From the NCBI GenBank assembly GCA_025774805.1, contig JALGZR010000096.1, positions 1-14,826 of the forward strand: a stretch of 14,826 nt of DNA. The letters are read 5' to 3'. Within the stretch, counting starts at the first letter, position 1, and the number at the start of each line of letters is the position of its first letter. Positions 2,611-13,263 of this stretch are shown here, piece by piece. Source of the DNA: a bacterium. GTDB taxonomy: Bacteria; ARS69. Made by a program: the position numbers and the translations under genes. The notes under the pieces were generated by a model. The model was not told where the DNA came from. It saw only the letters and a list, made by a program, of their open reading frames with translations, and searched no databases.

Positions 2611-3645
2611 CTACGCGGCGGGGACGGGGTCGGCGAGCTCTCTTCGGGCCCCCGGCCGGAGGCAACGCTCGACGATTCTCTTCCGAGTGTGGGTCACTGG
2701 GTGGTCGACCGAGAAGAGGCGCGCCATCCGGTGGGTGGCGAAGAGCAGGTAGGCGGGCAGCAGGAGGGGAAACAGATCCTCGCGGACCCCCCCCTCCGCG
2801 AAGCACGTCAGGAGAAAGGCGCGGTTCCGATCCCTCGGACGACCGGGGCGAAAGAAGCCGTCCTCGAATCCGCGGAGTCGGTCGAGGCCTCGGCGGGACG
2901 CGTCGCGCAACGAGCAGTCCACGGCGAAGTGGATGGGGTCCAACCAGGGGAACTGACGCTTCTCTCCGAACTCCCAGTCGATCGCGCCGATACGCTCCCG
3001 CTCGACGATCAGGTTCGACGCCCTGAAGTCGCCGTGGCCGAAACCGTACAGGGACGTCTCGGTCGCCCGCGCCTCGACTTCCCGGATCAAGCTCTCGATC
3101 TCCCTTCGGATCGCCCCTTCGGGCTCCCAGGTCTCGAGGAAGAAGTGGGCCGAACGCAGAAACGGCTCCCAGAGCACTCCTTCCGCTCCCTCGAAGAGGC
3201 CGGTCTCTCCCCAGAGCTCCGCGAGCCAGCTCGTCGCCCGGTCGTGAATCTCGCGGACGGGCCGGTCACGCTCTCGGAGATCCGCGATTCGCCGATCCAG
3301 AGGAACCCCGGGGAGAATCGTCTGTACGGTGGCGACGCGGTTTTCGGTCTCCTCTCGGAGGAGCGCGCGGGGGAAGAGTCGGCCGGCGTTCCTCGGGGCG
3401 GCGCCTTCGAGCTCTTTCAGAACGGCGTGCTCGTGAAGGGCCCACTGTCGAGCCGTACCGTCCCTCGGGATCTTCCCGACCAGGAGAGGCCTCGACTCGC
3501 CGGCTCGAAAGACGTGGAAGAGGACCTTGCCGTGCCGCCCCTCGGATCCCGACGACAGAAAGAAGTCGAGTCGGGCCGGCGCCCTCCCCGGGAGGCCCAG
3601 CTCACGCCACCTCGCCCGGATCGACCGCTCGATCCGCTCGATCAT
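2611..3645 (-). CDS. Aminoglycoside-phosphotransferase-fold kinase (APH family)
   Basis: 344 residues with the kinase landmarks in order. LLVGKIPRD holds the putative ATP-binding Lys (about K58). A partner Glu lies in the HEHAVLKELE helix (about E72). The catalytic loop is HGDFRASN (H204, D206, N211), and AIDWEF (D223) is the metal-binding Asp equivalent to DFG. APH-fold enzymes phosphorylate small molecules, sugars or lipid-linked substrates. A resistance role is not indicated: the neighbours are a methyltransferase and an SGNH hydrolase, which suggests modification of a surface glycan or lipid. ATG at 3645 is preceded by GAGGGGAG with 7 nt spacing and overlaps the methyltransferase stop as ATGA, implying translational coupling. 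Possible terminator structures lie just past the stop. Confidence 0.8.
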   Translation of the reverse strand: MIERIERSIRARWRELGLPGRAPARLDFFLSSGSEGRHGKVLFHVFRAGESRPLLVGKIPRDGTARQWALHEHAVLKELEGAAPRNAGRLFPRALLREETENRVATVQTILPGVPLDRRIADLRERDRPVREIHDRATSWLAELWGETGLFEGAEGVLWEPFLRSAHFFLETWEPEGAIRREIESLIREVEARATETSLYGFGHGDFRASNLIVERERIGAIDWEFGEKRQFPWLDPIHFAVDCSLRDASRRGLDRLRGFEDGFFRPGRPRDRNRAFLLTCFAEGGVREDLFPLLLPAYLLFATHRMARLFSVDHPVTHTRKRIVERCLRPGARRELADPVPAA

Positions 3646-6192: not shown

Positions 6193-6989
6193 TCAGCGAT
6201 AGAGACCCTTGATCTTCCCCCAGCTCGTTCCCTCCACCGCGATTCCGTCGGGCGACAGGCCCACGATCGTCGCGACCACCGGCATCTCCGGCCAGCTGCC
6301 TCCGTTCGCCTCCGGGACCGTGCCGGTGCCGGTGATGAAGAAGACGCCGTCCGCTCCCGTGTCTTGCGCCACGGGGTGAGAATGTCGTCGACGTAGGCGT
6401 TCCCGGTCGGAGAGAAGGGGGAGTCCCGGAGGAACGCCGTTCCGGTCATCACGAACCCTTCCGAGGTGTCGGGGACACCTGTGCTCCCGAGGGTTGCCAC
6501 GAAGTCGACGCTGAGAGTGAACGCTCCGGTCGTGGGGTTGTACCCGCCGAAGTCGACGGCGGCGATCTCGGAGCTGTAAGGCCCGTGCCCGGCGAAAGGC
6601 TGGGAGCCACTCACGGTCCAGTCGGTGATGATTGCGCCGCCGCCGGACTGCGCGACCCCGACGTCGACGTCGATCGTCCCGTTGAGAAACGTCATCGCCT
6701 GCATTCCCGGGGGCATCCACGGGTCGGTCTGACCTCCGACCCCCGTGAAGTCGAACGCGTTGAAGCTCCACGCCCCCGACGCGTTCGGATCGGAGAACTG
6801 CAGGGTCGACGAGTTCGGATCGATCACGTCGTCTCCGGTCCCGATGAGAGCATCCGTGGCCGGCCAGTGGTTCAGTACGGCGTCGTCGTCGATCGCCAGT
6901 TGCATCGTCCTCACCTGGGCGGCGCAGAGCCGGAGGGAGAGGATAGAGGCGAAGACGAGAACGAAGAGAGTCGTGACAGCAAGCTTCAA
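6193..6989 (-). pseudogene. Secreted protein of unknown function, disrupted by a one-base frameshift
   Basis: The gene starts at TTG 6989 with a signal peptide (MKLAVTTLFVLVFASILS, cleavage likely after CAA). The mature part is Gly-, Asp- and Thr-rich, with stretches such as GAWSFNAFDFTGVGGQTDPW, GTIDVDVGVAQSGGG and FGGYNPTTGAFTLSVDFVA. It looks like an extracellular beta-sandwich; I do not recognise a family. The frame is good to ILTP, then continues one register over as VAQDTGADGVFFITGTGT and ends WGKIKGLYR-stop at 6193. Adding one C to the C-run opposite 6373-6376 restores a continuous 265-residue product. Without it the first frame runs on about 600 nt as unlikely sequence antisense to the SGNH gene. 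It is either a real lesion or a homopolymer error. No FlgD tail is present. Confidence 0.65.
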
Positions 6990-6994
6990 GAAAC

Positions 6995-7001
6995 ACCTCC
7001 C
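6995..7001 (-). promoter_or_regulatory. Strong Shine-Dalgarno deciding a TTG start
   Basis: On the minus strand GGGAGGT precedes TTG at 6989; 6 nt separate the GGGAGG core from the start. TTG is immediately followed by a textbook signal peptide. Upstream in-frame ATG would add 17 residues with no signal-peptide character. Confidence 0.7.
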
Positions 7002-7123
7002 GGTTGGGCCGAAAATTGCGGAGAAGCACGAAACGGCCAACCACGACTCTTGCGTTGATCAAAGCTTCGGGCACCCGCCCCGACCCGAGGACTCTCCCGG
7101 TTTCGAGACCCTGCCCGGTCGGG

Positions 7124-7491
7124 TTCGAACGGGGTTGGGTCTATCAGGGCGGCGGGGACTGGAAGCCCGACCGCGAGTCGGAGCCGGTCACGGATCTGAC
7201 GGCGCTTCTTGCGCTCGCGGGCGACGGAACGGAGATCACGTTCACGGCCGTGCTCGAGGGCGAGGAATACCGGTTGGGCGTGGAGCGCGATGAGGATACC
7301 TCGATGTGTTCGATGTGACCGGCTGTCGAATCCGGACGCTCGCTCGGAGTCCCCGTCTCATGGCAGGCAGCTACGAACACGCTTGGGATTTGCATGACGT
7401 CCGCGGTCGGCGCGTATCCGCCGGAGCCTACTTCGTTCGACTCTCCGCTCCGGAAGCGACGTCTCGGCAACGGGTGGTCGTACTGCGATAG
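7124..7491 (+). pseudogene. 5'-truncated, frameshifted remnant of a FlgD-tail secreted protein
   Basis: Two adjoining frames look coding. The first, to about 7295, reads FERGWVYQGGGDWKPD...VTDLTALLALAGDGTEITFTAVLEGEEYRLGVERDE. The second, from about 7294 to the stop at 7491, reads YLDVFDVTGCRIRTLARSP, AGSYEHAWDLHDVRGRRVSAGAYFVRL and a basic end RQRVVVLR. The second part is a complete FlgD-like Ig C-terminal domain (compare VFDVTGRxIRTL, W-D-x-x-x-x-RGRxVxAGxYFxRL). One missing base near 7294-7297 would join them. There is no start codon with signal peptide or RBS upstream, so the 5' part of the gene is gone. It ends 15 bp before the end of the convergent Asp-box gene, which carries the same kind of tail. 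Confidence 0.6.
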
Positions 7492-10233: not shown

Positions 10234-10259
10234 GACGAGCCTGGTGAGAAATGCAGGCT
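10234..10259 (+). repeat. Hairpin repeat, copy 2 of 3
   Basis: GACGAGCCTGGTGAGA core. The stem is AGCCTG (10238-10243) with CAGGCT (10254-10259), loop GTGAGAAATG. It differs from copy 3 at one loop base and shares GCCTCGCGACGAGCC (10227-10241) with copy 1. Its end overlaps the stop codon of the minus-strand glycosyltransferase gene (10258-10260). It lies in the 165-bp gap before the Asp-box gene. Confidence 0.8.
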
Positions 10260-11785
10260 AGTATCCCGGGAGCCGCCGGATGAGCACGACGCGCAGCTCA
10301 TCGGGGGGGATTCTCGGCCCCCCCGCCCGCGGCTTGGTCAGCACCTGGATCCGCCGTTCCGGAAAGGTCAACTCCGCCCAGGCCTCGACCGAGTAGCCGG
10401 CGAGGATCGCCGCACCTTGGACCTCGGGATACTCCCCGCGCGGCTTCACCCACGTGGGCAGCGGTGGACCCTCCACGAGCGTGCCGTTCGCCGACCGCCG
10501 AATCGAGTCGCGCAGCTCCTCGAGAAAGGAGTCGCTCGCCGTGGTGGCGCGGTCCCATTCCCGGTAGTGGTAGATGAGCGGAGAGTAACTCGCCTGCCAG
10601 ATCAACGAGGCCGCCAGCAACAGGATCGACCCCGTGGCCGCGATTCGGAGCGCTCCCCTCTCGTGGTGCACCACGGAGATCAGCCACTCCGCCAGGGCGC
10701 CGGCCCCCATCGCCAGTCCGGCTGCCGGGATCAGCGCATACCACGTTTCCATCTCACCGGCCGTCGCATAGACCAGAGTGACCAAGACCAACCACATGAC
10801 GGCGAGGAGCCCCAGACGCAGCGGTTGAGAACCGGGGGGCACCGGCCCCGGTTCCCCGGCCCCTTCCCGGGATTGCCGGAAGGCGAGCCGTGTCGCCAAC
10901 AGTCCGGTGACGACCAGGCCCGTCACCAGGATCCCGAGCATCCACCGCCCCGCGACGACCTCTCTCATGACCGGTTGGGGCCAGACGAGCACCTCGATCA
11001 TGCGAAGCGCCCATCGGGGGAAGCGGCCGATTGCCGCCGCCAGGCTGGTCGACGCATGGCCACCGATCCCGCCGAGCACGGCGACTCGCACCGACAGAAC
11101 CGCGACGAGCACGGCGAGGTGCGGCACCAACGCTCTCGTCGCCCGTCTCAGACGATCGCGTCCGGATTCCCCGGGGCGGTCCAGTAGCACGGCGAGAAAG
11201 GTGAGTGCCGGGAGGATGAGGGCCGCCTCCCTGGAGAGCACCGCGATCAGAGTGAAGAAGGCCGGGAGAATCGGCGGCCGAGCAGCCCGCACCGACCGGG
11301 GGGAAAGCTGCGCCGCCAGTGACAGCATCATGAAGAGCCCGCAGAGCGTTTCCGGGCGCCGGGAGGGAACCGGAAGGATTTCGAGATGAGTGGGATGCAG
11401 CAGGAAGTACAGCAGCGCGGCGATCGGAGCCACGCGAGCCCGCGGCTCTTCGCACCAGGAGAAGGAGCGCCGTCGAGCAGCCGGCGAAGATCAACAGACT
11501 GGTGAGCTGGTAGCCGAAGGGTCTCAATCCCCAGATCGCGTAGTCCAGAGCGAATACGAGGTTGAGAACCGGACGGTAGAAACGACCGGAATACCGTCCT
11601 TCCATCAGGCCTTCGGTGAAATTGTCCCGGAGGTCGCCGAACGACTCCACGCGACTGGAGACGATGATCGGGTAGGTATCCCAACCCATCAGTCCCCAGT
11701 CTCGAGTCTGGCCGAACAGAATGCCGGCGGAGACGACGATCAGGGCGATCGGGACGGTCTGAGCCCAGAGATTCGGCCGTTTCAT
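10258..11785 (-). pseudogene. TMTC/PMT-like multi-spanning membrane glycosyltransferase, one-base frameshift
   Basis: The first frame (11785 to about 11440) begins MKRPNLWAQTVPIALIVVSA and carries WGLMGWDTYPII and RFYRPVLNLVFALDYAIWGL, then FGYQLTSLLI. The Y-R-P-x-x-N-L-x-F-A-L-D-Y-A-x-x-G-L pattern is characteristic of GT-C/PMT-related proteins that resemble TMTC O-mannosyltransferases. The next frame continues the same topology: VAPIAALLYFLLHPTHLEIL, RRPETLCGLFMML, SREAALILPALTFL and further helices, to a tail ending at TAG 10258. Removing one base from the G-run opposite 11439-11441 gives a continuous protein of about 508 residues, reading RRAAARVAPIAALLY across the joint. No TPR repeats are present. 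It lies 113 bp downstream of the sulfatase-like gene on the same strand, so the two could form one transcript. Confidence 0.7.
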
Positions 11786-11898
11786 GCATGCACCGAGCGG
11801 TCCCCAGTTCACGAAGCAACCGCGCGCGACTCTACCTGATTCCAGGCTCGGATCCTCACGAAACCGTCACCCCTGCCGACGACTCGACCTCGGTGCCG

Positions 11899-13263
11899 TC
11901 AATTCGTGTAGCCGAGGGCCCGGAGCTCGTCCTTCGTACCCGGATCGATCCGGGGTGCTTCTCCGGGGCGTCCCGCGAAGCGTGCCGGATCCCCCTCGAT
12001 CCAAAGCGCCTCCAGTCTCCGCCAGACGCCGGCTTCTCTCTCGCGGAAATCGCGCGTCTCACCGGGATCGTCCACGAGGAAGTAAAGCTCCCCCGTCTCC
12101 GATCCCCGGACGCGGATCGCCTTCCAGACGCTCGTTCGGGTCACCTCGAGCTCACCGTGATGTTCGGCGAAGACCGCCCGCGGCACGGAGGGGCCGATCG
12201 GCGTTCGGGCGAGATCGATTCCCTGGCACTCCGGAAGAGCATCGTCACTTACGACGGCGGCCACGGTCGGGAAGACGTCCACGAGACTGACCGGATCGTC
12301 AACGATTCGACCTCCGTCGAAGGCACCGGGCATCCGGATCAAGAGGGGCACTCGAAGCGTCTCCTCATAGAGGTGGAAACGGTGCCCGTGCCGCCCGTGC
12401 TCGAAGAACTCCTCACCGTGATCCGCGACCACGATGAGGAGGGTGCGGCCCAGATCCCCCCGCTCCCCGAGACGGCGGATGATCCGGGCGATGACCGCGT
12501 CCATCCAGCGGATCTCGGCCCGGTACAGGTCACGAAGATGCTCGAGATCCGCGGCCGGCATTCCGGCGTGGATCCGGTCGTCCGACAGGACGCCTCGACC
12601 GGTGATGTCTCCTTCGTAGCCGTCATCGACGTACCGCGGGTAGGGTCGAGGAGCCTCGTAGTCCGCGTGCGGATCCCAATGGTGAAGGAAGAGAAAGTAC
12701 GGATTACCCGTGGGAAGGGTGGTGAGCCACTCTTCGGCCTTGGCGTGCGTGATCGGACCGGTCACTCCGAAACGAGAGCGTATGATCGCGTGACCGGTGT
12801 TCCGTATGCGCCCCTCGTCGTTGACCTGGATGTGGTAGCCCACGCAACCGGTATAAGTCTCGAACCCCTGGGCAAAGCCGTAGCCGGGATGCAGGTAGGG
12901 TCCGGACCAGAATCCGGCCGTCCGGTACCCCTTCGACCGGAGGAATTCGGCGATCGTCTCCCTTTCCTCGGAAAGCGATTGGCCATCCCGGTTGACCCCG
13001 TGGCTCTCCGGGTACAGGCCGGTAATGAGGGAGATGTGTGAAGGGAGGGTTCACGAGGCGGTCGACAGCGCGTTCGCGAAAACGACTCCCTGGCGCGCGA
13101 GCCGGTCCAGAGTGGGGGTCGTGCCTTCGGGTGCGCCCCCGAAGCCCACGAAATCGTGACGAAGGGTATCAATCGAAATCAGCACGACGTTCGGAGGCGG
13201 CTCCGCAGAGGGGCCGCACCCGGAGAAACCCATCCAGGCGACCAGCATCCACACGCGACGCAT
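11899..13263 (-). pseudogene. Sulfatase/alkaline-phosphatase-superfamily lipoprotein with one in-frame TGA
   Basis: 454 codons in one continuous frame except TGA at 13053-13051. The N-terminus has a lipoprotein signal (MRRVWMLVAWMGFSGC, Cys16). PNVVLISIDTLRHD carries the first metal ligand Asp (about 32), followed by TPTLDRLARQGVVFANA. The next codons are S-T-A-S, TGA, then TLPSHISLITGLYPESHGV, so the stop sits one residue before the position of the catalytic C/S/T-x-P-S-R/H motif. Downstream are HHWDPHADY (about 194), VVADHGEEFFEHG with Asp281 and His282, GHRFHLYEETLRVPLLI, and the C-terminal ELRALGY, all typical of PF00884. The nucleophile would be Thr, not Cys, so sulfate ester hydrolysis via formylglycine is doubtful; a phosphotransfer or phosphodiesterase role is possible. 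AGGAG lies 6-7 nt before ATG 13263. Family homologues commonly have Trp before TLPSH, so TGG-to-TGA is the simplest explanation. Confidence 0.8.

Follow-up and report, generated by a model that had tools for sequence, protein, structure and literature searches.

A sulfatase-like gene interrupted by a single in-frame TGA

The window analysed here is a contig of 14,826 nucleotides taken at its full length. On its minus strand lies a gene for a sulfatase-superfamily lipoprotein (PF00884; 11899..13263), which runs from an ATG at 13263, with an AGGAGA upstream, to a terminal TGA at 11901-11899 and has one interruption in its 454 codons: an in-frame TGA at codon 71 (13051..13053, minus strand). The minus-strand letters at the site are ...GCC TCG TGA ACC CTC CCT TCA CAC..., with the TGA at 13053-13051, so that the stop adjoins the TLPSH motif at what is a tryptophan position in the subfamily. 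The original prediction, that a TGA stands directly before TLPSH in a single frame with no other stop in 454 codons, is borne out by the sequence, the frame, and the Pfam match. The Sulfatase domain crosses the TGA, scoring 157 bits over residues 24-336 of the read-through translation and covering profile positions 1-297 of 301; the segment after the stop scores 109 bits alone, and a PF00884 search of the genome independently flags the gene as having one TGA inside.

By this domain match and by its metal-site and nucleophile-motif residues, the predicted product is a member of the sulfatase superfamily, and it carries a lipoprotein-like signal peptide. All 29 alignment columns that are conserved at 93% or more in 102 relatives are intact in this copy, and because these strongly conserved columns are retained, the otherwise intact look of the gene is, judged from the alignment, not a matter of chance. 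Two explanations that would leave the TGA as an ordinary gene end can be set aside. The 70 codons past the TGA contain no ATG, GTG, or TTG, and the locus is therefore not a pair of adjacent genes in place of one split frame; a downstream restart finds no start codon over the same distance, and a restarted protein would be without the nucleophile motif.

The residue expected at codon 71

A change from TGG to TGA at a family tryptophan had been proposed as the simplest reading, with an alignment of homologues from the same lineage as the way to check it, and the alignment agrees. The aligned segments are loci from GTDB genomes, 89 with tryptophan at the TGA column and six others. Tryptophan is found in every one of the 89 segments with a WTLPSH/WTLPAH-type motif, encoded in each case by TGG, and of the six without it one is the interrupted gene, the other five being second copies from distant loci, with L, L, T, V, and Y. 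The nearest genomes among those searched are of the same family, none of them of the same genus; two of these same-family genomes hold the closest relatives of the gene (52 and 48% identity), both with TGG at the codon. An intact paralogue elsewhere in the same genome, on contig C19, is 50% identical to the interrupted gene and also has TGG at the site, and together with the TGA gene and the two same-family relatives it forms one fully supported clade. The position is variable in the genome's more distant sulfatase-like paralogues, which have L, V, I, S, or Y there and in a single case (L261) Cys; tryptophan at the site is therefore, in these alignments, typical of the subfamily and not of the entire superfamily. 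The step from TGG to TGA is one transition, and an early stop that a single substitution separates from the sense codon of the relatives is the pattern that a pseudogene or a sequence error would be expected to leave.

Lesions on the contig and in other sulfatase genes

The interrupted gene is not the only one on the contig whose frame is disturbed. The next gene, for a membrane protein with no Pfam match (10258..11812, minus strand), lies in two frames, split near 11441-11406, and its homologues in a same-family genome (L310 and L311) are single frames of 513 and 561 amino acids. A secreted-protein gene (6193..7040, minus strand) seems to switch coding frame near 6400, as judged from codon usage and reading and not from homology, and a gene remnant in two frames (7130..7488, plus strand) matches residues 179-358 of one open reading frame in L310. 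Lesions were counted across 1.9 Mb of the organism's own genome, of which 415 kb is covered by homology. In that homology-covered sequence two nonsense lesions are credible and three sites are candidate frameshifts, and one nonsense lesion and one frameshift of these sit on this 14.8-kb contig. Such an accumulation of lesions means that the contig is either decaying or poorly resolved as sequence.

PF00884 has 42 matches in the genome, 39 of them without a stop, and, with about 40 members in the family, we infer that a single copy such as the interrupted gene is expendable. Two other sulfatase-like genes in the genome are also damaged: one on C86 (L290:2925, minus strand) is interrupted by a TAG within this very active-site motif (VTAP*VATILTG) and loses its frame further on, and one on C56 (L235, near 18690-18980, minus strand) is broken over several frames.

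An ordinary lesion as the preferred explanation

The reading that we favor, at a probability of roughly 93%, is an ordinary TGG-to-TGA lesion, taking a real nonsense mutation and a sequence error together; between the two, we would put the odds at about 55:45 for a real mutation. The subfamily TGG codon would have become TGA by a recent nonsense mutation in an expendable paralogue or, alternatively, one wrong base in the assembly consensus would have produced the TGA. At such a codon, RF2 would be expected to terminate translation, and the product would be a fragment of 70 residues that lacks the catalytic motif. The frameshift in the neighboring gene favors decay or error at the sulfatase-like gene as well. 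A point against a lesion is that there is no older decay within the gene, its frame being otherwise open; because all 29 of the conserved columns are intact, the lesion would be either very young or artificial, and a true pseudogene could only be a young one.

Could the TGA be decoded?

The strongest of the competing explanations, and still an unlikely one, is that a near-cognate tryptophan tRNA reads the UGA at a useful low level, so that a little full-length enzyme is made and the codon acts as a throttle. The residue inserted in this way would match the family residue, and the remainder of the gene is intact; however, no relative has a stop at the site, the surrounding context is without distinguishing marks, and other lesions lie nearby. 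We regard as similarly doubtful the broader proposal that low-level UGA decoding, whether by near-cognate tryptophan insertion or by selenocysteine insertion without a standard SECIS, makes the stop a throttle on an exported sulfatase-like enzyme of a bacterium that uses selenocysteine.

Less probable again is that the genome's own machinery reads the UGA as selenocysteine, yielding a selenoprotein with selenocysteine beside the sulfatase nucleophile. The genome encodes SelA, SelB, and a tRNA-Sec with anticodon UCA, and it has true selenocysteine genes, so this reading needed a real test. A genome search for selA, selB, and selD had been suggested; it recovered the first two, along with the tRNA, and it gave no SelD above the cut-off (the best score was 20 bits, on C170). 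SelD may be absent from the assembly though SelA, SelB, and tRNA-Sec are present.

We searched 1.57 Mb of the genome for stops with coding sequence on both sides and obtained 51 candidates; in 34 of them a start codon lies within 8 codons, as neighboring genes would show. After Pfam checks of the other 16 candidates and one more, apart from the sulfatase, the credible TGA cases were three selenocysteine genes and the sulfatase-like gene. Each of the three is a likely selenoprotein gene. In a thioredoxin-like gene (C44, L216:878, minus strand), the TGA falls in a WCxxC motif (FFTTWUAACKRF), the Pfam thioredoxin match crosses it, and there is a SECIS-like hairpin. An HdrA-like gene (C124:62600, L189:2600, minus strand) has its TGA at a Cys-type site (TFPTMDCSIUILGPKAL), with strong hairpins after it. 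The third gene (C8:47024, L157:17025, plus strand) encodes a secreted Omp28-like/thioredoxin-fold protein (FGFSTUPYCPDV) with an FlgD-type tail and a weak Thioredoxin_3 match across the selenocysteine site; a limited literature search found no paper on an Omp28 protein with selenocysteine.

According to published constraints, a bacterial SECIS is a hairpin 16-37 nt past the UGA whose first two loop positions include a G, with an energy limit of -7.5 kcal/mol (PMC13188914). We scanned for such hairpins at the TGA site, taking 1000 random windows, 114 homologues that have TGG, and the three selenocysteine genes as comparison. In the 60-nt stretch that follows the TGA and should contain any SECIS (12991..13050, minus strand), no hairpin satisfies these constraints. 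Folding of five windows gave no SECIS either: the sequence after the TGA folds no better than its shuffles, and the first ~28 nt are predicted to be unpaired. The original prediction had already considered a SECIS unsupported, and both approaches uphold it. In contrast, each of the three selenocysteine genes has a hairpin that shows this G and whose loop starts 18 to 27 nt past the UGA, with energies of -9.5, -12.4, and -6.7 kcal/mol, the last slightly above the limit. In a genome this rich in G+C, hairpins of SECIS-like strength often arise by chance, which makes their presence in the selenocysteine genes weak evidence alone and the absence of one at the TGA site informative. The lack of a hairpin, together with relatives that have tryptophan rather than cysteine, tells strongly against selenocysteine at this site, which is moreover not a redox motif. 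The encoded machinery, the three convincing selenocysteine genes in the part of the genome scanned, and the cysteine at the TGA column of the distant paralogue L261, the one Cys homologue found, are what speak for selenocysteine, and against the evidence above they leave it very improbable.

Reassignment of UGA to tryptophan, for which this single TGA at a tryptophan site would be the argument, has a negligible probability, and a global code of this kind, against which the original prediction had argued, is excluded: RF2 is encoded, the sole tryptophan tRNA found has anticodon CCA (reading UGG) and not UCA, TGA is the main stop (ending 434 of 682 well-supported scanned genes, with the coding signal dropping at once after it, as after TAG and TAA), and the genome uses UGA for selenocysteine. 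A part of the earlier argument was that an ATGA-coupled methyltransferase uses TGA as its stop; this is the methyltransferase gene ending at 3642, where an ATGA overlap is present, and not the methyltransferase gene beside the sulfatase locus (14393-13764).

Comparison with known systems

An ordinary lesion at the tryptophan codon matters little as it stands, with a single paralogue, from a large family of hydrolases, written as broken. It does carry a caution: an in-frame TGA need not be a selenocysteine codon, even in a genome with selenocysteine machinery, and here it is the SECIS and the residue that relatives have at the site that distinguish the true selenocysteine genes from the sulfatase-like gene.

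With the WTLPSH/WTLPAH-type sulfatase-like hydrolases of Planctomycetota, Acidobacteriota, Myxococcota, and related metagenome-assembled genomes (MAGs), the gene shares a whole domain, the residues of the metal site and nucleophile motif, and a lipoprotein-like signal peptide; it differs from them in having TGA in place of the tryptophan codon before TLPSH. The likeness to bacterial selenoprotein genes, such as the thioredoxin-like and HdrA-like genes of the same genome, extends to an in-frame UGA within a conserved domain and a genome with SelA, SelB, and tRNA-Sec, but the sulfatase-like gene is without a SECIS, has relatives with tryptophan and not cysteine, and offers no redox site. The remaining comparison is with a nonsense pseudogene or a single-base assembly error in a MAG, which the locus resembles in having one premature stop within an otherwise intact paralogue and in the further lesions on the contig, although decay within the gene is limited to one codon.
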